Shown here: piece after piece, positions 1,317-18,950 of the stretch
Layout of the letters: the number at the start of each line of letters is the position of its first letter
Numbering within the stretch: position 1 is the stretch's first letter
Source of the DNA: a virus
Length of the DNA stretch: 26,433 bases
Direction: 5' to 3' (one strand)
IMG/VR virus record: IMGVR_UViG_3300013138_001101
Coordinates: 1-26,433 of that record
Notes under the pieces: generated by a model
The model's input: only the letters and a program-made list of their open reading frames with translations
Database searches by the model: none
Told to the model about the DNA's origin: nothing
Translations under genes and position numbers: made by a program

Positions 1317-1667
1317 ATGCACGGTGACTGGAAATGCCCGTTTAGCAGGAGGTTGCAGCGTAAAGCCGCGGAGCGCGGGCGGCGCATGGCAAAGGCTCGC
1401 TGGGCGCTGGACCGAGAACGCCGCCACCGGCTTGCCGCTTTGACAGCCGAACAATGCCCCAACCACATCGTCCGCCGAATCGTCGTCATTGACGGCGAGC
1501 AGAGCGTGAGCGAGACGGTGTTCTGGTCGTGGGACTCCGATCGGGAATGGCAGCGCAAAGAGCGCAACGCCTTGCGTCAGAACAACCCATCCCAGTTCAA
1601 CGACGCCCAAGCCGTGTCTCCGCCTTCTCCGGCGCTTCCGTCAACAGTCGCGATCTTCAGTTCGTAG
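1317..1667 (+). CDS. small basic hypothetical phage protein
   Basis: A 116-residue protein. The first 87 residues look genuinely coding: a KCPF motif, then a strongly basic helix (SRRLQRKAAERGRRMAKARW), then a beta-rich part (VRRIVVIDGEQSVSETVFWS) ending in DREWQRKERNALRQ. Similar small KCPF-starting basic proteins occur in environmental phage genomes, without known function; nucleic-acid binding is only suggested by the charge. The ATG lies just beyond the structured segment, with no obvious Shine-Dalgarno site. The final 30 or so residues run antisense through the end of the convergent nozzle-like gene and are Pro/Ser-rich, so the natural C-terminus may have been lost or extended. Confidence 0.6.
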   Translation: MHGDWKCPFSRRLQRKAAERGRRMAKARWALDRERRHRLAALTAEQCPNHIVRRIVVIDGEQSVSETVFWSWDSDREWQRKERNALRQNNPSQFNDAQAVSPPSPALPSTVAIFSS

Positions 1668-3400: not shown

Positions 3401-4321
3401 TCATGTCACAGGGAAACTAAGCTGGAATCGGTCCAGCAACCAACTGAAATCACGCGTGAAGATGGACCGGTTGTATGCCCGCTCCGTCTCCACCAAATGC
3501 CAGTCTTCGTACAGCGCCCGCTTGGCAGTGCCCAGCAAGCCGTCCTTGGGCAGCCGCCGTTCCAGCCGTTCGGCATGCTCTGGAGGCAGGCAGGTGTGCA
3601 TGCAGAACAGCTTGTTGTACAGCGGATGCCACGGCGCTGCGGATGGCAGCCCGCGCTTGCGGAACTGATGTCCAATTCTGACGCCCTTCAGCATGCGGAT
3701 TTCCCCGCCAGCCAGCCATGTCTTGAGCGACAGCATTGCTTCGTCCACGCCGTAGGAGCGCAGACACCGCAGCGGTTGCAGCCGCAGAAAGAACTCGCGT
3801 GGAAAGAAGTAGCAGGCGCCCATCATGGCGGGCAGTGCATAATCGTCGCCGGGCTGTTCTGGCTGCCACACCACCTCCAACACTTGATTCGCACCTTTGC
3901 GGTTCCGATCCGGCCCGTAGAGGTTGAAGGTGGCCCCGTGATAGAACGAAGTGGAACGCAACAGATCCATGTTGCCGCGCTCCAGCCCAACGCACTGGGC
4001 GCAGTGGGCGATGTTGGGGCGACCGGCAGTCCGTTGCTCTGCCGCGGCGTACCACCCCGGCTCGAAGCGCATGTGCGAGTCAACGAACAGCAGGTAGTCA
4101 CCTGACGCGCGCAGTGCGCCAATGGTGCGGGCTGGGCCTACGCCCACCCGCCGGTTGCAACGGATCACGCGGGCGCCCATTACCTGCGGCACCGGCTGGC
4201 GCGAGGCGTCGTCCACCACCATGATCTCAACCGTATCTCCAACAGTGGCGCGGATGGACTTGATCGTCTCAACACACTCAGGCGTATCGTCGCGGGAGGG
4301 GATGATGATGGAGAGGGTCAC
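3401..4321 (-). CDS. glycosyltransferase resembling polypeptide GalNAc-transferases (GT-A, GT2/GT27-like)
   Basis: I place the start at GTG 4321, overlapping the upstream stop as GTGA, because the GT fold begins at once (TLSIIIPSRDD) and the longer frame upstream is antisense-like. The product has 306 residues. Visible motifs: VEIMVVDDAS (31-40, nucleotide site); FVDSHMRF (79-86), where DSH matches the DxH metal motif of polypeptide GalNAc-transferases rather than the usual DxD; YGVDEAMLSLKTWLAGG (190-206), matching their 'WGGExxExSFRxWxCGG' block; and VRIGHQFRKR (214-223), matching 'VGHxFR'. There is no membrane anchor and no ricin-type lectin domain, so it would act in the cytoplasm. The acceptor is unknown; a Ser/Thr-rich virion protein is a reasonable inference. 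Confidence 0.8.
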   Translation of the reverse strand: MTLSIIIPSRDDTPECVETIKSIRATVGDTVEIMVVDDASRQPVPQVMGARVIRCNRRVGVGPARTIGALRASGDYLLFVDSHMRFEPGWYAAAEQRTAGRPNIAHCAQCVGLERGNMDLLRSTSFYHGATFNLYGPDRNRKGANQVLEVVWQPEQPGDDYALPAMMGACYFFPREFFLRLQPLRCLRSYGVDEAMLSLKTWLAGGEIRMLKGVRIGHQFRKRGLPSAAPWHPLYNKLFCMHTCLPPEHAERLERRLPKDGLLGTAKRALYEDWHLVETERAYNRSIFTRDFSWLLDRFQLSFPVT

Positions 4322-4599
4322 GGCGGAATGATGGACCACTTGGCAAGCACCGCCTTTATGTACGGCACGCTTTGATGACTCGGATAGTGTCGCAAGATGG
4401 TCGGCTGGCACGAGTCGCACGGGTTGTCGAAGCTGCTGCGGACCGGGTGATAACCGTAGCAGCGGGGACATCGCAGGTATGTCTCATCGGCCTTGCGCTG
4501 CTCGGTGCATTCACGCCCCAACCGCAGGGCCAACCGCACTGACTGGCTTGTGACTTGGCCTGTTTCGAGCAAGGCGTCTCTGGCTTGGTTGGGTGTCAT
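4318..4599 (-). CDS. small Cys4 zinc-ribbon-like protein within the glycan cassette
   Basis: 93 residues. The N-terminal half is a charged helix pair. The middle holds CPRCYGYHPVRSS followed by NPCDSCQ, a CxxC-x(n)-CxxC arrangement typical of zinc ribbons. The C-terminal part is helical with aromatic residues. Its ATG overlaps the stop of the methyltransferase gene as ATGA, and its stop overlaps the GTG of the next glycosyltransferase, so it is translationally embedded in the cassette. No enzymatic motif is visible. It could be an accessory or scaffolding subunit, or a DNA-binding regulator. I do not recognise the family. Confidence 0.7.
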   Translation of the reverse strand: MTPNQARDALLETGQVTSQSVRLALRLGRECTEQRKADETYLRCPRCYGYHPVRSSFDNPCDSCQPTILRHYPSHQSVPYIKAVLAKWSIIPP

Positions 4600-5858
4600 G
4601 GCAACACTTCTGGGAAGACGCCGGGGATAATGAACTTGCCACCAAGTTCCGTGTAGCGTGAGTTCTTCTCAATAATCTCCTTTGCGTAGTTCCATGCAAA
4701 CAGCACGGCATAGTCCGGACGCTCACGCAGCAGCGCGCCCTCGTCAACGATTGGCACCGCACTTCCCGGACTGGAGCACCACTGCTTCTGTGGTGTGTTG
4801 TCGGTGATGAATGCGATCTCCTTGCGCGTGAATCCGCAGGCGTTCATCCAAACAGTGCTCTTGGCTGAAGCTCCAAGCCCGCACACGGTTTTGCCCAACC
4901 CCACAAGCTCCTGCACCTTCGAGCGCAATGCCGAAATGGCCAGCCGTGCGCCGTCGTCAAACGCGGCCAAGTCGCTTCGACTCACCTTCTCGGCGTCTAT
5001 CTCCTCCAGCGTGTATGCCTCACTCCACTTGGCGCTGTCCCTCCGGCGCAGGGTCGCCGCCACGGTGCCGCCGTGAATGGTGAAGTGGTGAATCCTGTGA
5101 ATGCGAAACGGAGTGTCTTCCACCGCCGCGCGCAAACCGCGCAGGGTGAGATAAGACAGGTGTTCATGGTACACGGTGTCGAACTCGCAGCGGGCCAGCA
5201 TGTTCAGCGCGTAAGGCGCCTCGATGACGATACGCGTGTCGCGCTCGGCCAGCGCGTCCAGCGCCGACAGGGCGGATTCCCAGTCTTCAATGTGACAGAA
5301 CACATGGCGGGCCAAGATGACATCCGGAATGGGAATGGCCTGCTTGGCAACCGACGCGGTATCCTTGTCAAACAGGCCGCAAATGCTGGTTGCATCTGGG
5401 TGGTTTCGGCGCGAAATCTCCACAAGATTCTCCGCCGGGTCAATCCCGCACGCCGCCGCTCCGTTGGACATGGCAAACCCCATGAAATCACCATCGTTGC
5501 TGCCAATCTCCACCAGAGACGTGATGGGGGCATCGTTGATGAGAGCACCCCACAGGCCCTCAAAATGGCGGCGCATGGTGGCGCTCTTGCTGGTCACATA
5601 GCTGTAGTGGTTGTAGAGGATGTCTGGCCGAACCACCACATCCAACTGCAACAGGCTGCACTTGGGGCAGTGCATCAGCCGGAGCGGAGCAAACCCCGCC
5701 CGCTCCTCACGTTCCTTTCGGAAGTCATTGGCCAATGGTTGAAGCCCTAGATCGAGCACAAGATCGAGAGCCTCAGTGCTGTGAATCGCTTTAATTCCCG
5801 GGGCGTTTGGGTCCTTGCCATAGCCGCAGGCCCGGCAGTGTGTGTGTGGTAGATACAT
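4596..5858 (-). CDS. SAM-dependent sugar C-methyltransferase (three-domain NDP-hexose type)
   Basis: 420 residues with the full three-part layout of TylC3/NovU-like sugar C-methyltransferases. There is an N-terminal zinc-binding part with CRAC (8-11) and CPKC (64-67) plus LGLQPLANDF. A Rossmann SAM domain follows with EIGSNDGDF (117-125) and ARHVFCHIEDWESAL. The C-terminal domain has YHEHLSYLTL (230-239), HGGTVAATLRR and GLGASAKSTVWMNACG (327-342). Family members methylate NDP-4-keto-6-deoxyhexoses at carbon 3, often C-3 branched sugars in antibiotics or surface glycans. Here the substrate would have to come from the host or from genes outside the window. Length is normal for the family and all motifs look intact. 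Confidence 0.88.
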   Translation of the reverse strand: MYLPHTHCRACGYGKDPNAPGIKAIHSTEALDLVLDLGLQPLANDFRKEREERAGFAPLRLMHCPKCSLLQLDVVVRPDILYNHYSYVTSKSATMRRHFEGLWGALINDAPITSLVEIGSNDGDFMGFAMSNGAAACGIDPAENLVEISRRNHPDATSICGLFDKDTASVAKQAIPIPDVILARHVFCHIEDWESALSALDALAERDTRIVIEAPYALNMLARCEFDTVYHEHLSYLTLRGLRAAVEDTPFRIHRIHHFTIHGGTVAATLRRRDSAKWSEAYTLEEIDAEKVSRSDLAAFDDGARLAISALRSKVQELVGLGKTVCGLGASAKSTVWMNACGFTRKEIAFITDNTPQKQWCSSPGSAVPIVDEGALLRERPDYAVLFAWNYAKEIIEKNSRYTELGGKFIIPGVFPEVLP

Positions 5859-5863
5859 GGTGG

Positions 5864-6466
5864 TTATTTGTGGAGCGCCTCTCCATGCGTGACGCAGGTA
5901 AACATGGGGTGGTTGCGTAGATTGCCAGAAACGGCCTTGAACCTCAAACCGCAGTACTTCTCAGCCATCGCGACGGCGATGGGAAGTGTGAGTTGGTCTC
6001 GGTGGGAATACGAGCAGATCAGCGACCACCAGATCGAATTGAACATTGCGACCGCCCCGGTGTGCCGGCGGAAAAGGACGGTTGCCTCCAACAGTGGGAG
6101 TGCATCCGCCTCCCTTGGGTAGTCCGACAACACGCGTTCCGCCTGCGACGCGGACTCGTATCCGAAGTTGACCACCGCCTCCACTTCCTGCCGGATGGTG
6201 CTGCGGCAGTGATGTGAGAAAATGGCCAGTTCCACCCCGTCTGTAAGTGACGAGAAAAGCTCGTCTTCAGGAGCGTTGACACAGACATTTCCGTCAATCC
6301 AAACGCTTCTGTGATGTTCCCTCCATATCTCTGGAGTCAGGTGGTTCAGCACCTTGTACCGCTTGGCCTCCATGCGCGGGGACCCAAGCCGTCCGCTTGG
6401 TTGATCGAAGACGCGAACGTCGTCCCGGCGGGCATCGTATCCGCCAAAGATGGAAGTGTAGATCAT
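5864..6466 (-). CDS. TOD1/MUCI70-like glycosyltransferase (PF04765-type)
   Basis: 200 residues beginning directly with IYTSIFGGYD (2-11), the hallmark of the TOD1/MUCI70 glycosyltransferase-like domain (formerly DUF616). Further family blocks are RMEAKRYKVLNHL (31-43), SVWIDGNVCV (54-63, the putative donor/metal site) and FSHHCRSTIRQEVEA (83-97). Bacterial members occur in surface-polysaccharide clusters and act as single-domain transferases; the donor is not defined. The ATG overlaps the preceding methyltransferase stop (ATGA), and five bases separate the stop from the next ATG. Length is typical for the single-domain form. Confidence 0.82.
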   Translation of the reverse strand: MIYTSIFGGYDARRDDVRVFDQPSGRLGSPRMEAKRYKVLNHLTPEIWREHHRSVWIDGNVCVNAPEDELFSSLTDGVELAIFSHHCRSTIRQEVEAVVNFGYESASQAERVLSDYPREADALPLLEATVLFRRHTGAVAMFNSIWWSLICSYSHRDQLTLPIAVAMAEKYCGLRFKAVSGNLRNHPMFTCVTHGEALHK

Positions 6467-7095
6467 CGGCGCTTCTCTATAACCGCAAGCTCCCTCCAGA
6501 ACGCCACCTTGGCAATATCTCCACAGCCACGGTGCATGTGCATGATGAGCTTGTGCAGGTACTCCATCTGGGTGAGTTCACATGGATTGCAGTAGCCCGG
6601 CTGGCCAGAGCAGGCCAAATCTTCAATGCAGTAAAGCCCACCGGAGACTACGTGCGGCCATAGCTCCTTGAACGATGTCACGATGCCGGATGCTGTGTGC
6701 CCACCGTCATCAATGATGATGTCCCATTCTCCGCCGTTGGATTTGATGAAAGAATCCCAGAAGCCCACAGATGACTGGTCGCCTTGTGTGAAGTGATAGC
6801 GGGGATGTTCGATCTGCGCGTCGAAAGGCTTGCGGTACGGCTTTCCCGGGTCTGGAACATGCGCGTACCGCGGGTCAATCTCGCCGTTCGGCTTGTTGAT
6901 GTCCACCCCGTAAATATTGGCCGCGCTGAAGAACTCAAGCCACATGAGGATTGATCCGCCACCGCCAACGCCGATCTCCAAGATTTTAGCTGGGGCGTGT
7001 TGGTGGGGTTTGAACAACTCATAGTACGGCTCGGTGTAGCCATGCCCGGCCTTGTCAGTGCCGTGTTTTAAGGCTAATTCATGCAGTGCGTTCAT
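6463..7095 (-). CDS. class I SAM-dependent methyltransferase, probably O-methylating a sugar
   Basis: 210 residues. The start HELALKHGTDKAGHGYTEPY and the following ILEIGVGGGGSILMW (38-52, SAM motif I), IYGVDIN (61-67), WDIIIDDGGH (124-133) and GGLYCIEDL (152-160) match macrocin-type/TylF-related methyltransferases seen in glycan gene clusters. Asp and His in IDDGGH are the usual metal-binding candidates. I infer O-methylation of a sugar hydroxyl from the neighbourhood. It overlaps the upstream glycosyltransferase by 17 bases and the downstream one by four. It carries no membrane segment. Confidence 0.85.
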   Translation of the reverse strand: MNALHELALKHGTDKAGHGYTEPYYELFKPHQHAPAKILEIGVGGGGSILMWLEFFSAANIYGVDINKPNGEIDPRYAHVPDPGKPYRKPFDAQIEHPRYHFTQGDQSSVGFWDSFIKSNGGEWDIIIDDGGHTASGIVTSFKELWPHVVSGGLYCIEDLACSGQPGYCNPCELTQMEYLHKLIMHMHRGCGDIAKVAFWRELAVIEKRR

Positions 7096-7684
7096 GGGCT
7101 TTGAGGATCATCGCTCTCACTTGCTGTTTTTCGGCATACGCCCGCGCCCAGAAGTGGTGCAAAAACGGTTTGGCTTCCGGCTCGTGGGTTGATGGATTGG
7201 AGACGGCGGATTCTGGGATGCGGGAGATGCCATCCCTGACGGATCTGAAGTTCTCCTCCATGAACTTTAGCGTGGCTTGGTCGGTGCATCCATGTGCATC
7301 ACTATCCTTCTGCCCCAGAAACCACCACGCATCCAACAGCCTGCGCGACCATTGGCAGTTAAGAAGACCGAACACGCCGGCGCAGAGGCCGTACGCATCT
7401 TGACTCACATCCATAGGAAGCCCTGAGAGGATGCTGGACAGGTCAAAATCATCCCGCAGCAGCGCAACGTCTGCGTCAATCCAAAACACGTAATCCGCCC
7501 CCGAACCATCCAGCCGGGCGCGGAGCAGAGGCACCTTCGCCCAACTGGCCCCGATGGGTGATGTGCCATTCTGGAAATGGAACGCGTAGCCGCGTCTGGC
7601 GGCGTACTGCCTTATAGCCGGAACGGAAACATCTCCAATCGTTCGGAAGAAGTCGTCATGCTGCATCACTATCTCAATCTTCAT
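7079..7684 (-). CDS. DxD glycosyltransferase, GT34/GMA12-MNN10-like
   Basis: I choose ATG 7684 (201 residues) because it overlaps the upstream stop as ATGA and begins the fold at once (MKIEIVMQHDDFF). The longer frame, reaching back to about 8002, is low-complexity Arg/Gly sequence and antisense-like. Key motifs are WAKVPLLRARLD (48-59), YVFWIDADVALL (65-76) with the DxD metal motif DAD, LCAGVFGLLN (100-109), CTDQATLKFM (133-142) and LHHFWARAY. This pattern fits retaining galactosyl/mannosyl transferases of the GMA12/MNN10 type. Donor and acceptor are unknown. The absence of a membrane anchor implies cytoplasmic action. Confidence 0.8.
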   Translation of the reverse strand: MKIEIVMQHDDFFRTIGDVSVPAIRQYAARRGYAFHFQNGTSPIGASWAKVPLLRARLDGSGADYVFWIDADVALLRDDFDLSSILSGLPMDVSQDAYGLCAGVFGLLNCQWSRRLLDAWWFLGQKDSDAHGCTDQATLKFMEENFRSVRDGISRIPESAVSNPSTHEPEAKPFLHHFWARAYAEKQQVRAMILKAHERTA

Positions 7685-8430
7685 AGCTCGGCGCTCCGCC
7701 TTGGAGAGTGTGACCACACCAACAAGGCCCGGGCCATGTCCCTTTCGGATTGCTCCGGACGGATGCTGTGGCACATGTGGTAGTACAGCATCTCGGGAAC
7801 CACTTTCATCGCCACTCCGCTGTTCACCATCTGCTTCTGAAGGTCTTGCTGGTCGAATCCCCACCCCACCAACGCCTCGTCGTACCATCCTCCCATCGCC
7901 ATTGCGAGCTTGTTGGTGCAGAAGCTTGGGCCATCTTGAGCAACCTCCGCGCGCATGGGGTTTCCCGTACAGGCGGAAAGCGCATCCACGTTTTCCCTCC
8001 ACGGAAGGCTGTCCATCGTCTTGGTTGATTGCTCATCAAGCAGCGTGTACCACGGCGTAGCGTAGCACATGGGATTATCCCCCGCCGCGCCAAGCATCTG
8101 TTCACAGAAATCATGGCGATACACACAGTCCGCCCGCATCATCACGAAGATTGGGTGTCTCGCGGCTCGGATGGCCCGGTTGCCAGCCCATGATAGCGTC
8201 TTGATCTGATAAGCTTCATGGCGGACGAAGTGAAACTCGGATTCAAACTTCCCGGTGTCCACATGCTGGCACACCACGTTGGTAATCTCCTCGATGCTGA
8301 ATGGCGAGTTGTTGTCGAAGAAGATGAACTGACTCGGCGCAACCGTCTGGCGCGACACCGTGTAGATGCTGCGTTCCAGATGCTCCAGTTCAACCGAGCG
8401 GAACATTTTGAAAACAAGCGACCACTTCAT
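7681..8430 (-). CDS. glycosyltransferase family 2-like, with galactosyltransferase-type C-terminal motif
   Basis: 249 residues. The N-terminus MKWSLVFKMFRSVELEHLERSI is a GT-A beginning; FIFFDNNSP (35-43) marks the nucleotide site; VMMRADCVYRHDF (96-108) is at the DxD position with RAD, a common variant; GGWYDEALVGWGFDQQDL (180-197) matches the GGxxE...GWGxED block of Glyco_transf_7C-type galactosyltransferases and supplies the likely catalytic acid. The gene follows its upstream neighbour with a single base between TGA and ATG, and its stop overlaps the next ATG. The reaction is probably inverting; the sugar is not deducible. Confidence 0.8.
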   Translation of the reverse strand: MKWSLVFKMFRSVELEHLERSIYTVSRQTVAPSQFIFFDNNSPFSIEEITNVVCQHVDTGKFESEFHFVRHEAYQIKTLSWAGNRAIRAARHPIFVMMRADCVYRHDFCEQMLGAAGDNPMCYATPWYTLLDEQSTKTMDSLPWRENVDALSACTGNPMRAEVAQDGPSFCTNKLAMAMGGWYDEALVGWGFDQQDLQKQMVNSGVAMKVVPEMLYYHMCHSIRPEQSERDMARALLVWSHSPRRSAEL

Positions 8431-8431
8431 A

Positions 8432-9163
8432 TCACCCGGAGTCGGCGGAGGCTGAAAAGACCCGCTTCAACTCATCGGACGCATTGCGCCACATGGTTGT
8501 ATGCCGGTCCTGCACCAAGCAGTTGCTCTGGTCGCCGCGCCTGAAAATGTTGGGAGGAGTGCGCCACTGATCCTTGCGGTACGCCCCATCCCAAGTGACC
8601 AACCTTACGGGATACCCGCAATCCTCGAACCATGTCGAGAAGTTCCAGCAGCCGGACTCGAACCTAAACCCGTCATCGCGGGAGTCCACGCGATACGGAT
8701 ACTCCGACAACACCGCCGGAGAGCACGCGAAGCAAGAGGTGCGGATGTGTGGGTTCGGCCCAGTGTTGCTCCCCAGCGGGCAGTACTCGTATGATGCCGA
8801 CGCCCCAAACAAACCCTCTCCAACCTCCAGGCGCGTTGCGACAAGCCGGGCAAGCCACCCGGGCTTCCAGAAGTAGGTTCTGGAATTCATAAACACAGCG
8901 AAATCGCTGGTCAGGCGTTCCGCCATCGTTTGAAATGCGCCGATGTCCCATCCGTTTGACGCAATCTCCTCAAAGCGGCATTTGATTCCACGGAACAACG
9001 ACCGTTCGCGCTCGGTCGCTACACCATTGCTGCAACAAATGACGACCTCGTGATCTGCTCCGGCTGAGTATTCCCGATACGTGTCCGCCCACATCTCCGC
9101 GCACGCCAGAAACTCGGGGGTCAGGTTGTCCATTGGAAGCTGGTAGATCACTTCGACCTTCAT
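8432..9163 (-). CDS. putative GT-A-type glycosyltransferase
   Basis: 243 residues. The middle shows EIASNGWDIGAFQTM (66-80) followed by DFAVFMNSRTYFWKPGW (87-103), a layout in which the second segment occupies the DxD position (here NSR), then HIRTSCFACSPAVL and FESGCWNFSTWFEDCGYPV, the latter with a Glu/Asp where GT-A enzymes place the catalytic base. This resembles transferases of polysaccharide clusters whose conserved start is 'NxGWDxGA'. A canonical DxD is missing, so an inactive or metal-independent enzyme is possible. Its ATG overlaps the stop of the giant upstream transferase (ATGA). The family assignment is tentative; the glycosyltransferase-like fold is better supported. Confidence 0.65.
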   Translation of the reverse strand: MKVEVIYQLPMDNLTPEFLACAEMWADTYREYSAGADHEVVICCSNGVATERERSLFRGIKCRFEEIASNGWDIGAFQTMAERLTSDFAVFMNSRTYFWKPGWLARLVATRLEVGEGLFGASASYEYCPLGSNTGPNPHIRTSCFACSPAVLSEYPYRVDSRDDGFRFESGCWNFSTWFEDCGYPVRLVTWDGAYRKDQWRTPPNIFRRGDQSNCLVQDRHTTMWRNASDELKRVFSASADSG

Positions 9164-11382
9164 CGCTCAGACTCCTCAATCAGTTGCCATCCCAAGGAGT
9201 GCTTCTCAGGTGAATACGACCTGCCGTGAAACCCAAACGACAACCATTGATTTCCGAATGTCTCCGTCGAAAACTTCAGCGCCAGTTCCCGCGGGGCAAA
9301 GCGCATTCCTTTTTTCTCGAACTCAGCGCGGTGCTTGCGGCAAACCCAGTAGTCCGATGCAATGGTTTCCTCTGCCGGGTACGGGATCGTCAGCTTGGTG
9401 GCAAGCAACCGGTGGCTTTCGATGTTAAAGCCCCCATTCCCCACCACCCCATCTATCCACGGGGCACCGATGTAATCGTACTCCAAAAAGCGGTCGCTCC
9501 ACAGGTGATGCTGGATTGGGAACCCATCTTCATGCACCGACATCGCGAAGTCGCCGTCAATGTGTTTGGGGAGTTCTGAGCAGCAGAAGCGATTCCAGTC
9601 TGTAATGCCGCCAAGCGCAGGTATCTGCACGACCTCGCCCTCCAGCAGATCCCGCTCCGGCTTGGTGCAGCAGAAGAACTTGATGGCGCGGTGACGCGCC
9701 GTGCGGGCACAGTAATTGAGCACGCGCACCGTATGATCTATAAGGTCAGCGTTGGGCGACCAGCAGCAGGACCATAAGACGACGCGGTCGAGATTAAGCC
9801 GAGTCTTCGGCAGTTGGGTGCGCGCTCTCAACGTCGTATTCCACTTCCACAGGTTGTCGCGGTAGAGCTTCTGATTGTGCTTCTGCGCTGGGGCTGAATC
9901 ATACCTGCGCGGGTTGTTCCATTGAGTTGCATGGCGAATGTGGCCCACCCACCCGCGTTCCATTTCGCTACCCGGGAAGCAGGTTGAGAGCTTGCTCCTC
10001 GGGGCGGCCACGCCAAGCTTGTGCCGGATGAAGCACGTCAGCCAAATGTCGAACTCGCTGGCGCCGAGGATGAAATCCGGGATGTCATCCCAATGCTCTC
10101 GCAACCAAGACGCCCGGAATGCGAACAGATCCCTGCCGTTGTGGTTTTTATCTACGTTGGCCTTCCCCCATTGCGACGCAGCACCAGTCGGCGGTCTGCG
10201 GTTGAACTCGCACCTCGGGATGGACACGGCGGGATAGCGGCCAAGATGCTCACGCAGGGCGCCGGGAAGATCGGGATGGAGAACGGTGTCGTCGTTTGTC
10301 CACATCACGATCTCGTCACCTAACGCGCACGCGTCGAGCGCAGGCTTCAGAACATCCTTCAAATAGGGAAGGTCCAATGAATCCCCAATATCCTTGGCGC
10401 TGCGGAGGTACTGGGAATAGTGATGCGGCACAACCCCAAGCGTGAGGTAACACACATCCCAAGAATCCCACGCATACCGCTTGCGTTGCAATTCCACTGG
10501 GCTTCTGATGATGTGTCTCTCTACAGCGTGATGAATGACGGGGGACTGTTTTGTCCGTGCCACGCATACCTGCCGGACCTCATGGTTCATCAACTTGGAG
10601 ACAAACGCCGCAGCCGATCTGGATAGTGCATCATTCCTGATTGGCCTCAACTCGACACGCCCACGCTTGATCTGTCCCCGCATGAGCCGCTGGTGCAGAT
10701 CGCGCTCCGAACGGCTCCAGCCATCCATCTGCCCGGCCCTGTCGTCACCCATCCCAGAGATGTGGTACACCCCGTTTCCCCAGCAGTAAATGAAGCTGAT
10801 GTCTTTGCCGCCGAGTTCAAGCCGTAGTCCGCCGGCCTTGGTGATGCGCGACACGAAGTTGCGGTCCTCACCGCAGTTCATCGAGTCATACTTGCCCGCC
10901 TTGATCCAAGCGTCCCGCGTGAACGCTACAACATTGGCCGATCCCTGAACCACCTTCTCAATCCTGCCGCCCAACGAGTAGAGTTGGCTTCCCAACCAGA
11001 CCCACGGGTAGTCCGCGAAGTTGTTCCCGAAGTTGCTCAGATGATGCGGCAGGTAGTAATCGTCGTCATCCCACGTAACAATGTGCGTGCCATGACTGGC
11101 TTCGATGGCCATGTTGCGCGCCTCACCCAAAGACGGCGGACGACGGCTGCAGTTGATGATGCGGATGCGCGGGTGCGGATCGGCCAGCACCAACTGCTGC
11201 TTGGGCCATGTGTTGAACACGACCAACTCACTCGGCCCTTGGTAGTCTTGGGCAAGATAGGCCGCGATGGCTTCTTCAAGGTGTTCCGGCCTGCCCGCCG
11301 TGAGGCAGATGGCGGACAAGAACGGCAGGTTGTTCGGCGCGTCGCTCACAGTGCCAAAAGTGTCACCAATGCCCGCGTCCAT
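9160..11382 (-). CDS. three-module glycosyltransferase fusion (GT2 + GT-like + DUF5672)
   Basis: I choose ATG 11382 (740 residues), 13 bases after the upstream stop; the longer frame overlaps the vWA gene. Module 1 (about 20-240) is a GT2: LSAICLTAGRPEHLEEAI, LGEARNMAIEASHGTHIV, TWDDDDYYLP (104-111) and a GED at 171-173. Module 2 (about 305-515) looks like another GT-A-like domain: VCYLTLGVVPHHYSQYL, IVMWTNDDTVLHPDLP (358-373), FILGASEFDIWLTCFIRH. Module 3 (about 535-730) is DUF5672-like: FPIQHHLWSDRFLEYDYIGA, VVGNGGFNIESHRLL (646-660), EETIASDYWVCRKH. One protein could therefore add up to three sugars in series. It is the first gene of the glycan cassette and directly follows a virion-protein gene. 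Confidence 0.8.
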   Translation of the reverse strand: MDAGIGDTFGTVSDAPNNLPFLSAICLTAGRPEHLEEAIAAYLAQDYQGPSELVVFNTWPKQQLVLADPHPRIRIINCSRRPPSLGEARNMAIEASHGTHIVTWDDDDYYLPHHLSNFGNNFADYPWVWLGSQLYSLGGRIEKVVQGSANVVAFTRDAWIKAGKYDSMNCGEDRNFVSRITKAGGLRLELGGKDISFIYCWGNGVYHISGMGDDRAGQMDGWSRSERDLHQRLMRGQIKRGRVELRPIRNDALSRSAAAFVSKLMNHEVRQVCVARTKQSPVIHHAVERHIIRSPVELQRKRYAWDSWDVCYLTLGVVPHHYSQYLRSAKDIGDSLDLPYLKDVLKPALDACALGDEIVMWTNDDTVLHPDLPGALREHLGRYPAVSIPRCEFNRRPPTGAASQWGKANVDKNHNGRDLFAFRASWLREHWDDIPDFILGASEFDIWLTCFIRHKLGVAAPRSKLSTCFPGSEMERGWVGHIRHATQWNNPRRYDSAPAQKHNQKLYRDNLWKWNTTLRARTQLPKTRLNLDRVVLWSCCWSPNADLIDHTVRVLNYCARTARHRAIKFFCCTKPERDLLEGEVVQIPALGGITDWNRFCCSELPKHIDGDFAMSVHEDGFPIQHHLWSDRFLEYDYIGAPWIDGVVGNGGFNIESHRLLATKLTIPYPAEETIASDYWVCRKHRAEFEKKGMRFAPRELALKFSTETFGNQWLSFGFHGRSYSPEKHSLGWQLIEESER

Positions 11383-11395
11383 GTCAATGCTGAAA

Positions 11396-14344
11396 TTACG
11401 GAAACGATCCCAAGTCTGTGAACACCGACAGGTAGAACCAAGTCCAACCGGAGTAGAGCGGAGTGTCATCAACGACCCACAGCTTCCACGAACCACGGGC
11501 GGTTTCTCCAATCAAATCCGCAAGCGATGTGGAGAACGGCCCAGACGGGCCCGGAGATGGGAATGGGTCAATTTGCACTCCGTAAACCTTGGGTAGATAA
11601 AATGGGCCCACATCAACCACAGAGACGGCGCGAGAATGTTCAGGTATGTCCACCGTTCCCTCTGAATGTAAAACGAACAATCGCTCTACGGACGATCCGA
11701 TGTCTGCTCCCTGAGAATTGCCGAACAAGTAAACGCAGGTCCCATTAGGGGACTCCAAGATCATGTGAACGTCACGAGGGTCCCCATGTGCCATGCTAAT
11801 TTCCAACTGCACATTGCTGATGATTATAGCGTCCTCCGGGCAGTCTATGTACTTGACCTGCGGATACAACTGCGCTTTGGCCGGCCCAACTGCGCCGCTC
11901 GCCCTGTCTAAGATCGTGTTGAGTTGAAGATTGTTCGATCCCGCGCACACCAGCGCCGCCTCGGCGGCTGTCTTGGCCAACGCCGCGGCCTGTTCCTGCG
12001 CGTCCTGCTGGCTGATGTAGCTGGTGTAGGTCGCACTGCGCGTCACGTCCGATCCAAGGCCACTTTCACAGTGGGCTATGTATTGCGCGGTTTCCGTCCA
12101 GTAAGCCACACAATTCAACCTTGACTGTGCCAGCGCCAGCGCCGCATCGGTCGCAAGCTTGTCGGCGTGGACCTGACTGATCTCGCTGGTGGCCGAGGCT
12201 GTGGCGCATTCTTCGCCTTGCTCAAGCCCGTCCGGCTCCATTCCCTCCGGGCACTCCGCGCACGCCTCCTGCGTGCTGGTGTATGTCTTGGGCGGCGTGT
12301 AGCCTGCCTCAATGTCACTCAACGGATTTGGGTCCTGCGTCTGCACCGGCGGCGGCGAATCAAGGCACCCCTCGCCGTAGCAGAAATAGCCGTAGCCGTA
12401 GCCGTATGTGCCGTCGTCCAGCAGATGGTAGAGTGTGCCAGTGCCGCAGTCAGGCGCCACATACGTCGGATTTTCGTCGTCGAAGTCGTCACTGAATTCC
12501 GTGCTGCCGTCTGTCAGGTTCAGTAGTCGCACCTGATCCACCAGCAGCCCGATGGAGTCGTAGCCGGCTGGGGTGGCGGTCTGTTGCACGGACAAAAACA
12601 CGTCGCCGGTGGATGGCGCGGTAAAGGACAGGTAGTATTCCTTGAAGTCCTGCTTGAAATCGCTGATGGCGATTTGCTGGTTCAGATGATAGATGGGCGT
12701 ACCCGTGGCGTTTGTCTCCGCCGGATAGATCGAATCATCCACCGCTCCGCTCGCGATGCTTGCAAGCATCGCTGTCTTGCGGGTGGTGTCGGCGTAGGTG
12801 GTCGAGTCCGGCGCCGCTTCCGCAATCAGATAGTATCGGCTCTCCGGGCTGGCGCCGGTCGTGCGGTAGATGCGAATGAGCGTGGCATTGACGTTGGCTG
12901 CAAGCGTTACGTTTACCTGCGCGTCTTCCGTGCTCACCGTCGCCGACGCCGCCGCGCTTGCATCCGTTTCTCCATTGGCGTTGACGTAGCTGTAGAGGTA
13001 GGAGTACGTCTCCGGAGAATCCAACGGCACGGCGCCTTCGGCAGTCACCGGAACTGGAGCGGCGGGGGTGTCCAGTCCGTCGTTGTTCCGCTCGAACACC
13101 TGCACGCGCAGCGCGTTGGGCGTGGCATTGATGCGCTGATTGCCGGCGATCTTGAGGGCCAGCGCGTACTGCTTGCCAAGTGTCACAGCGATGCTCGCCT
13201 CGGTGACGATCTTGCCTGAGTATTCCGCGCGGCTGCCCGCCATGTCGAGATACAGGCCGTTCCCGGGCAGCAGATCCATCACGCCGCCGCCCACCAAGTC
13301 AACGTGCCCTTCGGTCAAACGCCAGTTGGCGAACCCGCCGTAGTTGAGCTTGCCGGCGGGCACGTATTCGTCGCCTGTGTCAGCGCAGTTGCCTCCGCAC
13401 ACGTACGAGCGCAGGCCGGTCAGGTAAGCCAACGTCGCGTCCGCCGTGTCGTCGTGGGCGTTGATGAAGAACCCGCCGGTGGAGAATGCCATCAGTAGGT
13501 TGTACGCCGGCCCCCACGCGCGCACCCCCACGCACAACACAATCCCGCCGGACTGCTTGAAGTCGTTCAGCAGCGCAATGGGGTTGTCATCCGATGTGTA
13601 GGACGTGTCCGTGTCCTCACCGTCGCTCAACAGCACAATCATCTTGCGGTCGGCGCTAACTCCGGCCAGGGCGGTGACGGCGGCCTCCATCGCGTCGTAG
13701 AAGCTGGTGAGTTGCTGGGTCTGGACAAGGCCATCCACCAAGGCCGATACCGCCGCGGTGTCGGCGGACGGGGCGGAGTGCGTCGTCGCAACTTCCTTGG
13801 TGAACGAAACAAGCCCCACGGTGTCCTTGGTGGAGTTGACCGACTCAATGAAATCCTTCGCCGCTGCTTTGGCATAGGCCAGCTTGGAACCGTAATCTGC
13901 GTTGAACGCCTGCCCCATTGACTTGGTGACATCCACGACCACCATGAAGGCCGTGCTGATTTCCTCGCAGCACAACTCGCCCGTGAGCGTCGTGATCTCC
14001 GCATAGGCCGTCATGCCTTGATAGCTGGCGGAGATGGTGGCCGTGCCGGCAGCCAGTCCGGTCGCGTTGCCACTGAGGGCGCCAATGACCGCCACGTTCG
14101 GATCGGAGCTTCGCCAAACGCACGACGCGGTCACGTCTGTCTCAACGCCGCCTTGAAACATTGAAGCGGAGAACTGCACCGAGCCCAGTTCGCACAGCAG
14201 CGACACGCCTGGCTTCACAAGAAGCAACGGCGCTTGCGGGCAGGTGTCCGGGTTGTTGAGCGCGAACGCCGGGTCGGAACACCGGCTGTCCGGCGGCGGC
14301 GCTACATTCAGGCAGGGGGCTTCTGTGATGCGGCCAAAGCTCAT
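11396..14344 (-). CDS. large multidomain virion-associated protein: Ig-like, vWA, DUF642-like, P-domain
   Basis: 982 residues from ATG 14344, which overlaps the adaptor stop (ATGA). Residues 45-120 form a BIG2/Ig-like domain (VWRSSDPNVAVIGALSGNAT, GLAAGTATISASYQGMTAYA). Residues 130-315 are a vWA domain with MIDAS residues D138-x-T140-x-S142 (DVTKS), T213 and SDGED (240-244). Residues 335-420, plus a later half (YYLSFTAPSTGDVFLSVQ ... LLVDQVRLL), look like a DUF642/galactose-binding-like sandwich with an Fn3-like insert (YSYVNANGETDASAAASATV). Then come Cys-rich repeats like those of the adaptor, and finally a proprotein-convertase P-like domain (LEISMAHGDPRDVHMILESP ... GSWKLWVVDDTPLYSGW). 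The domain mix suggests adhesion or glycan binding on the virion. There is no signal peptide. Confidence 0.75.
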   Translation of the reverse strand: MSFGRITEAPCLNVAPPPDSRCSDPAFALNNPDTCPQAPLLLVKPGVSLLCELGSVQFSASMFQGGVETDVTASCVWRSSDPNVAVIGALSGNATGLAAGTATISASYQGMTAYAEITTLTGELCCEEISTAFMVVVDVTKSMGQAFNADYGSKLAYAKAAAKDFIESVNSTKDTVGLVSFTKEVATTHSAPSADTAAVSALVDGLVQTQQLTSFYDAMEAAVTALAGVSADRKMIVLLSDGEDTDTSYTSDDNPIALLNDFKQSGGIVLCVGVRAWGPAYNLLMAFSTGGFFINAHDDTADATLAYLTGLRSYVCGGNCADTGDEYVPAGKLNYGGFANWRLTEGHVDLVGGGVMDLLPGNGLYLDMAGSRAEYSGKIVTEASIAVTLGKQYALALKIAGNQRINATPNALRVQVFERNNDGLDTPAAPVPVTAEGAVPLDSPETYSYLYSYVNANGETDASAAASATVSTEDAQVNVTLAANVNATLIRIYRTTGASPESRYYLIAEAAPDSTTYADTTRKTAMLASIASGAVDDSIYPAETNATGTPIYHLNQQIAISDFKQDFKEYYLSFTAPSTGDVFLSVQQTATPAGYDSIGLLVDQVRLLNLTDGSTEFSDDFDDENPTYVAPDCGTGTLYHLLDDGTYGYGYGYFCYGEGCLDSPPPVQTQDPNPLSDIEAGYTPPKTYTSTQEACAECPEGMEPDGLEQGEECATASATSEISQVHADKLATDAALALAQSRLNCVAYWTETAQYIAHCESGLGSDVTRSATYTSYISQQDAQEQAAALAKTAAEAALVCAGSNNLQLNTILDRASGAVGPAKAQLYPQVKYIDCPEDAIIISNVQLEISMAHGDPRDVHMILESPNGTCVYLFGNSQGADIGSSVERLFVLHSEGTVDIPEHSRAVSVVDVGPFYLPKVYGVQIDPFPSPGPSGPFSTSLADLIGETARGSWKLWVVDDTPLYSGWTWFYLSVFTDLGSFP

Positions 14345-16548
14345 GGACAGGGTCCTCCGTAACAGATGTTCCACGCATTCTGAGTCGGACACGTCCGATT
14401 GACGAACGAGTTGGCAATTTGACTCCCCTCAATCTCACATTGGCTGTTGGCAATAAGCTGTGCCGTACTGTTCGCCTCGGCAACTGTTGATGCCACCGGC
14501 CCCCTCCCAACAGGCACCATGTAGTTGACCACGAAGCTTCTCTGCACGGGCTGCATTAACCCCCGGCACGTCATCACGAATGTCTTGCGACAGAACTTCA
14601 TCGTGTCATTGCTGTAAGACCCGACAGGCTCTCCGCCACACACCAAATCTTCCGTTGCGTTGGATAACGCCTTCGCCTCCGCCTCGTTATTGAGCGCATC
14701 CTGCACAGACTGCGAGTATTCCGGGGTAGCGTTGGTGATCGTTCTCCAAATGCTCTTTGCTTCCGCCACACCATCAACATCTGGTCCCTCTTGCCCTTCT
14801 GGACAACTGGCGGTTGCTTCTTTTCTGGCGTTGTAGTAGGTGCATTCCAGTTGTGCGTATGCCAAATCGTAGGCTGCGATTTTCGCCTTATCGGTGGCGT
14901 CATCTTCAGATTTCTCAGACGAGTATCCCCCACTATTAGGACCTCCGCGCGGGATTGTAATAGACACTGTTTGCCCTTCAGGAAGCGGGTTGTCATCGAA
15001 CGCCTTGCAGGACACGCTCACATCCACTTGGCGGTTCCAGTATGTATTTGTCACGCTTTCACAGACAAGCAATGCTTCAGCCTGACGCTTCGCCTCCTCG
15101 TACGCCAGTTCGTTTGCGTCCTCCTTGGACTTCGCGGAGCCAACCGTGTCCGCAGGAACGGTGTAGGTCTGGCTGGCGCCGGTCGTTCCAGAAGGACAGC
15201 GCGCTGTGTAAGGCTGGGCATCATTGTAATAGAGGGGCAGCGTGGAGTCTCCAGAAACTCCACGCGCATGGCTCGGTTCACACTCGCGGGCGCGCGTCTC
15301 CTCACGGCACTCATGCGCGAGGTCTTGCAACGCAAGGTTGAACTCGCGCTCGTACACGCGCATCTCCTCGATGTCCTTATTCTCGTCGCGGGCAATCTCC
15401 TTCTGCACCCACATCTTGACGGCTCGAATCAGGTCAGGATCGTCGTCAATCCGGTCGCCATCCGTCCACTCACGCTTGATACCATCCCAGCGCAGAATGA
15501 TCGTCTCAGTGGACTGAATCCACGGCGCCACCAGCACGCGTCCGCGCTCGACAGCCCAGTAGCCGCGCGTTGCCCTGCTCGTGGCGTCGGTGGAAGTCTG
15601 TGGGTAATGGTAGCCCAGCGGTAGCGGCGCAAGTCCGGTGGGCAAGCCTTCATCGGTTGGCACAGGCGCCACGCCCTTGCCGCCAAGGCAACTGGCTGGA
15701 ATGGCGAGATACAGGTCAAGCGGCAGGCAACAGCCACACCGCTGGCTGCCGGCGATATACTGCCTCAACACACACGCGTCCACCTGTTCGTACACGATCT
15801 CAGAGCACCAGTCACGCCCTGTCGCCGCCGTGGCGGTGCCTCCGGAAATCGTGAACGGTCCGAACGTAAGATTAAACAATGGATGAGTGATGGTGGTCGG
15901 TGTAATCTGTATTCGATATAGAAGATATTCGGTCGTATTCGTGAAGCTGACATCGAGGGCTTCGTCAACCGTCCAGTCTGGCGCGTCTTGTTGATCTATT
16001 TGCGTCCACGACGCCCCGTCGTTCGATGCCACAATCGTAAACGTTAATTCCTGCGCGCGGGCGGCGCGAAATACCAGCGTGAACTTCGTTGCCACGACTG
16101 CGGTGGAAAACCGGAACTCAGCGTAGGCGGGCGTTGTGAGGTTGAAAAACTCCCATGTGTTGGAGTTGACCAGCGCGTCCGTGATCTCGGTCGCTACAAT
16201 ACTCGCCCCACCGCTGGTTTTGGCAAACACGCCCGCGTAGTCACTGCTGGCACTATCTCCAAGCACCGCAGCCGGGCTGGCGTCAGCCTCATTCTCATTG
16301 TCAATCACGCTCAGGCGCTTGATCCGCGCCCGATAGAAGTCGAACGAGGTAAGCCCGCAGTTGTAGTGCGTGGCGCAGTGGGGCACCAGATCGGTATTGT
16401 TCTGCTGCCAACACTCGACGTACTTCTGAATCTCGATCAGCGCGTCCACGATGTACCGGTCATGGGCGGCCCGCCGGCTGCGCGGCTCGCCCGCCGACCA
16501 GACATCCTCGCGCACGCGGGTTTTGAGATCGAGAAGCGTGATGCTCAT
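14341..16548 (-). CDS. head-tail adaptor-like protein with discoidin-like insert and Cys-repeat tail
   Basis: 735 residues. Residues 1-85 (LLDLKTRVREDVW, HDRYIVDALIEIQKYVECWQ) and 325-425 (GYWAVERGRVLVAPWI, TIILRWDGIKREWTDGDRI, AVKMWVQKEIARDENKD) have the pattern of podoviral head-tail adaptor/gatekeeper proteins. Between them, about 100-235, lies a beta-sandwich insert resembling F5/8C discoidin domains (TFTIVASNDGASWTQID, TEYLLYRIQIT). The last 300 residues contain four repeats (about 447-497, 501-570, 576-638, 648-705) of the form Cys, 'YTVP/ITIP', Ala/Glu helix, Cys, similar to DUF5977-type repeats. Placement between the capsid and tail genes supports the adaptor call. The extensions are unusual and may project from the portal vertex. 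Confidence 0.6.
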   Translation of the reverse strand: MSITLLDLKTRVREDVWSAGEPRSRRAAHDRYIVDALIEIQKYVECWQQNNTDLVPHCATHYNCGLTSFDFYRARIKRLSVIDNENEADASPAAVLGDSASSDYAGVFAKTSGGASIVATEITDALVNSNTWEFFNLTTPAYAEFRFSTAVVATKFTLVFRAARAQELTFTIVASNDGASWTQIDQQDAPDWTVDEALDVSFTNTTEYLLYRIQITPTTITHPLFNLTFGPFTISGGTATAATGRDWCSEIVYEQVDACVLRQYIAGSQRCGCCLPLDLYLAIPASCLGGKGVAPVPTDEGLPTGLAPLPLGYHYPQTSTDATSRATRGYWAVERGRVLVAPWIQSTETIILRWDGIKREWTDGDRIDDDPDLIRAVKMWVQKEIARDENKDIEEMRVYEREFNLALQDLAHECREETRARECEPSHARGVSGDSTLPLYYNDAQPYTARCPSGTTGASQTYTVPADTVGSAKSKEDANELAYEEAKRQAEALLVCESVTNTYWNRQVDVSVSCKAFDDNPLPEGQTVSITIPRGGPNSGGYSSEKSEDDATDKAKIAAYDLAYAQLECTYYNARKEATASCPEGQEGPDVDGVAEAKSIWRTITNATPEYSQSVQDALNNEAEAKALSNATEDLVCGGEPVGSYSNDTMKFCRKTFVMTCRGLMQPVQRSFVVNYMVPVGRGPVASTVAEANSTAQLIANSQCEIEGSQIANSFVNRTCPTQNAWNICYGGPCP

Positions 16549-17125: not shown

Positions 17126-17164
17126 TGGTTCGTTGGTTTTGTGTGGGTGGTATGGTTTAGGTTA

Positions 17165-17192
17165 AGGCGGCCCAGATCAAACCGGGCCGCCT
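17165..17192 (-). terminator. strong hairpin just downstream of the capsid gene
   Basis: AGGCGGCCC (17165-17173) pairs perfectly with GGGCCGCCT (17184-17192) around a 10-base loop, in the short gap between the capsid stop and the next start. On the transcribed minus strand it is followed by TTAACC, without a good U-run, so it is more likely a partial terminator, an RNase barrier or a processing site that sets capsid mRNA above downstream genes than a full terminator. Confidence 0.5.
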
Positions 17193-17216
17193 CAATGATC
17201 CGTCAGTTAGATTACG

Positions 17217-18950
17217 TTACTGAGGGGTTGTGGGCGTGGTGGTCGTAGTCGTAGTTGGATAAGTCAGACCTTCCGTCTCCGTGATCTCTGGCACGTCGTC
17301 ATTGAAGTTCTCGATGATGAGGTTTCCGGCGGGGCACTCAACTACCACTGCGTACGTCATACTGAACAACGATTGCGTTTGCGTGTGAACCTTCATCACG
17401 CACGCAAAGTCGCTGTTGATGCGGGCGAGGTCTTGAAGCCTGCCTGTCTCAGCGATCACGCGGCTGCTGCCGATGATGCCTGGATAGATGCCCGAGAAGT
17501 CGAGTACCCACAGCATGCGGGCGCTGTCCTTGATGCCCGCGAGGTTCGCCACGTCCAACTCGTCATCGAACGCGTAGTGCGTGATGACGTTCATCACGGC
17601 ACCTTGCGGCGTAAAGAGCGGGTAGCTCTTGTAGTAGAACCCGAAGTTCGCCTTCTTCGCCGTGGAGAAGCCCTCCACCGGCATGTTCAACCGCAGCGTG
17701 GTCGCGTCATTGTGGTCCGCGGACTTGGACGCGTAGTACTTAATCATCGCGCGGTTGATGAGTTCCGCCGTGAACGTGTCGGTGAATACGTCAACGATGC
17801 GGTTGCGGTTGCCCTGCGATTCACGCACGCGCAGGATGTTATAGAACGCCACGAACAGCGCCGGCAGGTTGAGGGCGCCGCCTGCAAGGTCTACCACGCG
17901 CCCGCACTCGGCCAGTTGCTCCAGCACGCCCGTTGCCTCGGCACGCTTGCCGACGCAGATGCCGCCGTCCACACCCAGCCCAAGCGAGGAGCCGTCGAAT
18001 GCGGTGATGTCCTCCAACGAGGTGAAGTCCGCCAACGTCTGGTTGGCGCTGATCGGTTTGGCGAAGAAGAAGTGATTCACCCAATGCTTCTGCTGCGTGG
18101 CCATGAGTTGCTGGTTGCGCTTCGTCTCAGGCAGGTCGAAGAACTTCCGGTAGAGCGCGTTGGTCTTGAGCATCAACTCGCGGTACTGCTGGTACGCGCT
18201 GCTGTTGCAGTAGCTCCAGCGCATGGTCTGCATCCAAAACGGCACCAGCTTGTTGTTCAGGTAAGCCGGCTGCTCGTCGCAGTTCTTCTCGAAGTCGCTC
18301 ACATTGTTCGGGCCGACACGGAGGTAGCCCTGCACCCCGTTCTGACACGGTTCGTCGTCCGTCTTGCACGCGTCGAGGTTGGTCGCCGCGTTCATGGCGT
18401 CAATCACGAGCGTCAGCGTGTCGTCGCCATTGTCGGTGCAAGACACCACCTCGAACATGCTCTCAGTGCGGACACCGCCCTCGCCCGTGCTGAAGACGTG
18501 GACGCGCCGGCCCGCCGGGAAAGTGCGCGTGTCCGCCGGGATGTTGGTCGGCGATGTGACCTGCAAGCTCCAGTAGTTGCCGGACGCTTCGCCTGCCGAC
18601 ACAAGCCAGAACTCGTTGTTGATCGGCGAGTACTGGTCCGCCTTGATGAAGGGCGCAATCTGCAACACGTCCGCGTTGACGCCCTGCGGCACAACCTTGT
18701 GGCTCATGTTGACCTTGTTGGCCATCAGGAACTCGTAGAGCCCGTTCTGATTGGCCTCGCACTGCTTGATCTCGAAGTCCGACATGAGCAGCGCGTCAAG
18801 CACGCGCATGTCCCCCGAGCTTTGGTAAACAGTACTCAGGTCATCGGTCGTGAGCGGAATGGCGTCGCACAGCGCGACAGAGCCGCACTGCTTGATGTTC
18901 GTGGAAATCGCGGGCGCGCATTTCGCGAAGGCATTGGCATTAAGAGTCAT
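17217..18950 (-). CDS. putative major capsid protein with mucin-like Thr/Pro tail
   Basis: 577 residues, the third sizeable gene after the terminase in the canonical terminase-portal-scaffold-capsid order and followed by its own hairpin; these are the main reasons for the call. The sequence mixes beta-rich and helical parts (QYSPINNEFWLVSAGEASGN, KYYASKSADHNDATTLRLN, SRMLWVLDF-type strands) and has several cysteines near the N-terminus. I recognise no specific capsid signature, and it is longer than many HK97-fold capsid proteins. The last 15 residues contain ten threonines and three prolines (TYP, seven T, P, TTPQ), which looks like a mucin-type O-glycosylation stretch. A large capsid-associated protein is the alternative. 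No clear Shine-Dalgarno precedes the ATG. Confidence 0.68.
   Translation of the reverse strand: MTLNANAFAKCAPAISTNIKQCGSVALCDAIPLTTDDLSTVYQSSGDMRVLDALLMSDFEIKQCEANQNGLYEFLMANKVNMSHKVVPQGVNADVLQIAPFIKADQYSPINNEFWLVSAGEASGNYWSLQVTSPTNIPADTRTFPAGRRVHVFSTGEGGVRTESMFEVVSCTDNGDDTLTLVIDAMNAATNLDACKTDDEPCQNGVQGYLRVGPNNVSDFEKNCDEQPAYLNNKLVPFWMQTMRWSYCNSSAYQQYRELMLKTNALYRKFFDLPETKRNQQLMATQQKHWVNHFFFAKPISANQTLADFTSLEDITAFDGSSLGLGVDGGICVGKRAEATGVLEQLAECGRVVDLAGGALNLPALFVAFYNILRVRESQGNRNRIVDVFTDTFTAELINRAMIKYYASKSADHNDATTLRLNMPVEGFSTAKKANFGFYYKSYPLFTPQGAVMNVITHYAFDDELDVANLAGIKDSARMLWVLDFSGIYPGIIGSSRVIAETGRLQDLARINSDFACVMKVHTQTQSLFSMTYAVVVECPAGNLIIENFNDDVPEITETEGLTYPTTTTTTTPTTPQ

Follow-up and report, generated by a model that had tools for sequence, protein, structure and literature searches.

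The window analysed here, a stretch of viral DNA of 26,433 bases, is a complete IMG/VR record and apparently a genome fragment, since its relatives reach 60-78 kb. The sample numbers of near-identical contigs seem to point to a lake, perhaps Lake Kivu, as its source. We consider it somewhat probable that the phage glycosylates its own capsid, the Thr/Pro tail of each subunit being modified by a phage-encoded relative of the polypeptide GalNAc-transferases of CAZy family GT27 and the sugar then extended by the enzymes of a glycan cassette. In eukaryotes, GT27 enzymes start mucin-type O-glycosylation, and the GT27 type is regarded as essentially eukaryotic. The evidence comprises the fold of the capsid, its tail, the kinship and catalytic residues of the enzyme, the co-occurrence of enzyme and tail, and acceptor-like neighbours of GT27-like genes in other phages; taken together, it most likely reflects mucin-type O-glycosylation of virion tails by a system that the phage itself encodes. 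The broader proposition, that phages run mucin-type O-glycosylation with GT27-like enzymes acting on Thr/Pro tails that arose repeatedly on capsid, head-decoration, tail and surface proteins, and with interchangeable extension cassettes, we hold to be evenly balanced. The features of the window are collected in Table 1.

Table 1. Features of the 26,433-base window discussed in the text
Feature	Position	Strand	Basis or remark
Virion structural protein, phrog_3287	1577..3385	-	Directly after the GT27-like gene; phrog_3287 also follows GT27 in G051
GT27-like glycosyltransferase (polypeptide GalNAc-transferase relative)	3401..4321, ORF to 4471	-	Profile, structure, motifs
Sugar C-methyltransferase-like protein (Methyltransf_13 + Methyltransf_14)	4596..5858	-	PF08484, E 4e-32
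TOD1/MUCI70-like glycosyltransferase domain (weak)	5864..6466	-	PF04765, E 6e-6
Methyltransf_24 methyltransferase	6463..7095	-	Pfam match
GT34-like (GMA12/MNN10) glycosyltransferase	7079..7684	-	PF05637, E 4e-12; start is the ATG overlapping the GT2 gene
GT2 glycosyltransferase	7681..8430	-	PF00535, PF10111
Probable glycosyltransferase, no Pfam match	8432..9163	-	Homologues in G007, G011, G008
GT2 + DUF5672 two-part glycosyltransferase	9160..11511	-	Second enzyme kept throughout the tailed clade
Virion protein, Big_2 and von Willebrand A domains	11396..14392	-	G053 counterpart holds a Pro/Thr mucin-like segment
Virion/tail-like protein, DUF5977-type repeats	14341..16548	-	Module also after the Thr linker in the G015 and G018 capsids
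14-bp RNA hairpin, no T-run	17162..17195	-	MFE -28 kcal/mol, z -4.2; after the capsid stop
Mucin-like Thr/Pro tail TYPTTTTTTTPTTPQ and stop	17217..17264	-	Translation, Thr codon count, disorder beyond the fold
Major capsid protein	17217..18950	-	577-aa ORF; HK97 fold from model, head-gene context

The protein that carries the tail had been put forward as a capsid candidate, and both its modelled fold and its position behind the terminase gene support this assignment. The capsid matches no Pfam, PHROG or NCBIfam family, and relatives were found neither among isolate phages nor in genome_contigs. The AlphaFold2 model built from 24 relatives is of moderate confidence (pLDDT 66, pTM 0.54) and has the HK97 fold over most of the chain; its PDB matches are HK97-fold capsids (VP1, E 1e-12; phicrAss001, E 4e-10), and VIA gives Z 10-12 to SPO1, VP1 and crAss001, with some encapsulins among the VIA rows. 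The head genes are ordered terminase (phrog_2), a large portal-like ORF, two further ORFs and then the capsid, the portal-like ORF having no match among PHROG or NCBIfam families. The window capsid thus shares the HK97 fold with the capsids of crAss-like phages and VP1, from which it differs in lacking a detectable sequence family and in having a Thr/Pro tail beyond the fold. Given that the main HK97 alignments stop at model residue 547-555, and that the last 11 residues (567-577) fall below pLDDT 50 and are predicted to be disordered, the tail is an addition outside the HK97 fold. By analogy with other HK97-fold capsids, and with relatives whose capsid continues beyond the tract into an entire further domain, the tail would face outward.

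At the C-terminus of the capsid ORF (17217-17270, minus strand) the translation is GLTYPTTTTTTTPTTPQ followed by a stop, and the last 15 residues contain 10 Thr and 3 Pro, just as the original prediction had read them; the capsid body has 6.5% Thr. In contig L002, which is near-identical, the tail differs only in reading PTTPR for the PTTPQ of the window. In 447 kb of loci carrying tail-less capsid relatives, no ORF has 8 or more Thr within 12 residues. The 667 kb of control viral loci, which carry other GT2 enzymes, contain no ORF of this density and none even at the lower threshold of 7 or more; the Thr density of the window tail is beyond chance. The Thr codons of the tail region are mixed (ACG 5, ACT 3, ACC 3, ACA 1) and form no pure trinucleotide repeat.

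A capsid profile scan of IMG/VR gave 51 loci, in which the tails were read through to the stop codon. The clade with Ser/Thr-rich tails consists of the window, L002, L017-L032, L037 and L060, and all 17 of its distinct capsids keep a Ser/Thr-rich tail or linker at only ~45-59% identity to the window protein, as in TSTTSTTIP, ATSTTTTTPS, VTSTTTTTTPT, LTTTTTTTAPQ, GTTTTTTTPH, SSTTSTTMTP and ATSSSTTTSAA. When the tracts are delimited by eye and the window's own prolines set apart, 19 of the 21 non-Thr positions are Ser. Capsid relatives outside the clade have short C-terminal tails that are acidic or rich in Tyr, and on the capsid tree the presence of the tail needs one change. These data bear on the reading of the tail as neutral simple-sequence DNA produced by slippage, which we regard as very improbable: short ACN repeats can expand, and a 204-kb phage described below has a very long poly-Thr run, but the mixed codons argue against pure slippage, as had been proposed, and the tail persists in 17/17 distinct clade capsids with turnover to Ser while being absent from tail-less relatives and controls.

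In several relatives the Thr tract is not terminal. It links the capsid to a further C-terminal domain in G015, G016 and G018 (of DUF5977 type in G015 and G018); among the loci of the capsid scan it does so in L029, L030 and L032, the L029 domain being a DUF5977 module like that of the virion/tail-like protein in the window. This arrangement, and the general frequency of Pro/Thr-rich linkers in surface proteins, would suit an unglycosylated tract serving as a flexible spacer or display linker, with the enzymes acting elsewhere. We consider such a role unlikely, though deserving of attention, as most clade capsids terminate directly after the tract and have nothing to display, Thr and Ser are retained though Gly/Ser or Ala would be equally serviceable, and the GT27-like enzyme is absent from the tail-less relatives.

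The presumed enzyme, a GT2-clan protein, is a real GT27 relative with an intact predicted catalytic metal triad. The annotated start of its ORF is probably too early, homologues setting in near a GTG at 4321 that overlaps the stop codon of the 93-aa ORF upstream. The label "GalNAc-transferase-like" given to it originally is well founded: the best PDB sequence match is the polypeptide GalNAc-transferase GalNAc-T10 (E 3e-11), a 12-member profile matches polypeptide GalNAc-transferases at E about 4e-27, and all of the 50 best PDB structural matches of the model (pLDDT 84) are polypeptide GalNAc-transferases. The metal ligands, that is, the DxH residues and the His of GHxF, are invariant in 12/12 members of alignment A2, and D131, H133 and H268 are invariant both there and in the wider 14-member alignment A4, in which the L142 enzyme lacks the full GHxF pattern. 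With the eukaryotic enzymes the phage protein shares the GT-A catalytic fold, sequence, the DxH...H ligands and a Thr/Pro-rich presumed acceptor; it differs in being phage-encoded, in its length of about 306 residues, in a profile match that stops short of where the animal enzymes carry their ricin-type lectin domain, and in the replacement of the WGGEN-type Gal/GalNAc motif by YGVDE in the window and WGxDE in most members, only G241 and E244 of the motif being invariant.

Within the capsid family, enzyme and tail occur together. The GT27-like enzyme is found in 11/11 Ser/Thr-tailed capsid relatives on adequate contigs. Whole-record searches gave orthologues in G000, G004, G005, G007, G008, G011, G013, G015, G016, G017, G018 and G046, which are all the tail- or linker-bearing records long enough to show the enzyme. 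The tailed records without it (G001, G003, G006, G009, G010, G012, G014 and G023) are short or broken contigs, or their capsid is identical or nearly identical to that of a GT27-positive record. In the tail-less G025, G033, G035, G039, G041 and G047 (30-70 kb) no GT27-like enzyme was found, G047 having two other GT2 genes, and the two-part GT2-DUF5672 enzyme has the same distribution across records as the GT27-like gene. The comparison with relatives lacking the cassette, which the original prediction had proposed as a check, thus came out in its favour, and tails conserved without any glycosyltransferase, which it had named as contrary evidence, were not observed. Because the tail represents one change on the capsid tree, the association within the family is a single, unreplicated event. 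Across 11 records, a small sample with distances near saturation, the distances between capsids show no correlation with those between GT27 enzymes (Mantel r -0.21, p 0.82). This suggests an exchange of GT27 genes between phages in which the pairing was kept.

Partly independent support comes from other phages, where the sequences place Thr-rich virion proteins beside GT27-like genes. A GT27 profile scan gave further viral loci beyond the capsid family. In G052 (204 kb, about 235 genes), GT27 is immediately preceded by a gene (L136:8414-9700, plus strand) whose product contains ~100 residues of nearly pure poly-Thr; no other Thr-dense ORF was found in this genome. In L142, a Phage_cement_2 head-decoration protein (PF09956, E 2.5e-21; phrog_122) with the added tail TAATTTAAPTTT is the product of the gene immediately preceding GT27; around GT27 (L142:4700-12985, plus strand), Ser/Thr-rich ends are found on a capsid-protease fusion (ASTTT), the head-decoration protein (TTTAAPTTT) and a tail protein (SPTTTA). 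These are followed by a GT11-like enzyme and a methyltransferase. A scan with the L142 enzyme found only L142 itself. In G051, a small protein ending in SPVTTTTGGGSATTTTGVPP is encoded directly after GT27, and other proteins of this record contain PPPTTTTTTTTTTLPP; its homologues of phrog_3287 and of the virion/tail-like protein show G051 to be distantly related to the window phage and not fully independent of it. G053 is the sole exception found to the pairing of enzyme and capsid tail: it has a GT27-like gene (538 aa) and a capsid tail, VYTPTAEEEYYY, without a Thr tract. The gene directly before its GT27 encodes a virion protein (L138:6813-9413, plus strand) with a long Pro/Thr-rich mucin-like segment, TPTPSPTGPTAPPTTPPPTPPPTAPPTT, which suggests a switch of acceptor from the capsid to a neighbouring virion protein. 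A looser scan for Ser/Thr/Pro mucin-like segments matched 6 of the 337 genes in the other GT27 records and 3 of the 801 control genes, which is not sharply enriched and makes it a weaker discriminator than Thr density. No GT27-like gene was found by tblastn with three GT27-like query proteins in 50,697 isolate phage records; a scan of genome_contigs for GT27 yielded for the most part partial GT2 matches, and among the matches listed none has both DxH and GHxF in the matched region.

These loci also help to weigh the proposal that the GT27-like enzyme has its substrates elsewhere, in other virion proteins or a host polymer, and is associated with the capsid tail through shared ancestry. The single change on the capsid tree, the enzyme of G053 without a Thr-tailed capsid, and weak matches of two GT27-like proteins to the GtrB-like phrog_841 are in keeping with this proposal, to which we assign a small probability: GT27-like genes elsewhere adjoin Thr-rich virion proteins, the fold matches polypeptide-modifying enzymes specifically, and GT27 distances do not follow those of the capsids. 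Smaller still, to the point of being highly improbable, is the prospect that the cassette hypermodifies phage DNA, with a glycosyltransferase acting on hydroxymethylated bases. DNA-modifying phage glycosyltransferases are known (cited in PMC12619734), but a base hydroxymethylase of the thymidylate-synthase family was present in 0/20 records searched, several of them fragments, the kin of the enzyme act on peptides, and the cassette sits among virion genes.

For glycosylation of the capsid by the phage itself, the following pathway can be envisaged. Each capsid subunit would bear a flexible Thr/Pro tail beyond the HK97 fold, with YPTTTTTTTPTTPQ as the presumed acceptor peptide, and the GT27-like enzyme would add the first sugar to tail Thr residues. 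The nucleotide-sugar donor would come from the host, and GalNAc is a guess from the enzyme family; of the donor-enzyme-acceptor idea put forward originally, it is the enzyme-acceptor half that gains support from the HK97 capsid, GT27 kinship, co-occurrence and Thr-rich neighbours. The GT2-DUF5672 enzyme and a variable cassette (GT2, GT34-like, TOD1-like and two methyltransferases) would lengthen and methylate the chain. The phage genome thus holds glycosyltransferase genes of the kind that virion glycosylation calls for; no relative of the sugar C-methyltransferase-like gene was found in other tailed records, a hint that the glycan decoration varies between phages. The outcome would be a sugar coat on each capsomer, differing between phages, which may protect the particle against antibodies or host defences, or keep it from adsorbing to wrong surfaces. 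We infer the modification of the tail, the sugar, its linkage, the order of the enzymes, the outward exposure and the benefit from the computed features.

Phage virion glycosylation itself is already known. According to PMC12619734, PMC12363180 and PMC11600133, which cite Freeman 2023, the C-termini of mycobacteriophage capsid and tail-tube subunits carry glycans put on by phage enzymes, as in Che8, Corndog and Myrna, which resemble the window phage in encoding their own glycosyltransferases; cluster O mycobacteriophages have a methyltransferase gene beside the glycosyltransferases. In Che8, Corndog and Myrna, unlike here, glycosylation is proven by experiment. The novelty appears to lie in the GT27-type enzyme and in the fact that it is paired with mucin-like tails; our literature search found no publication on polypeptide GalNAc-transferases in connection with phage capsids, and none on glycosylation of Thr-rich capsids. 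To our knowledge, sugar coats of phage particles have been proven in very few cases. If the proposed system is real, a GT27-like gene together with a Thr/Pro tail would form a recognisable enzyme-acceptor pair that predicts glycosylated virions from sequence, mucin-type chemistry would extend to bacteriophages, which would bear on where GT27 enzymes came from, and protein glycosylation would gain a soluble prokaryotic enzyme that brings its own peptide tag.

The genes from the capsid to the GT27-like enzyme share one strand, and between 16548 and 3401 almost every gene touches or overlaps the next, so that capsid and GT27-like gene plausibly share one operon. After the capsid stop comes a 92-base gap with a strong 14-bp hairpin; a scan around the capsid gene found no promoter and no terminator-like match, and the hairpin could lower downstream transcription as a partial terminator or stabilise the capsid mRNA. 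The virion protein with Big_2 and von Willebrand A domains has 998 residues and also contains a P-proprotein-like domain. At L029:7812-9746 and L030:9962-12073, where the capsid continues past the Thr linker into an additional C-terminal domain, each subunit would display one such domain.
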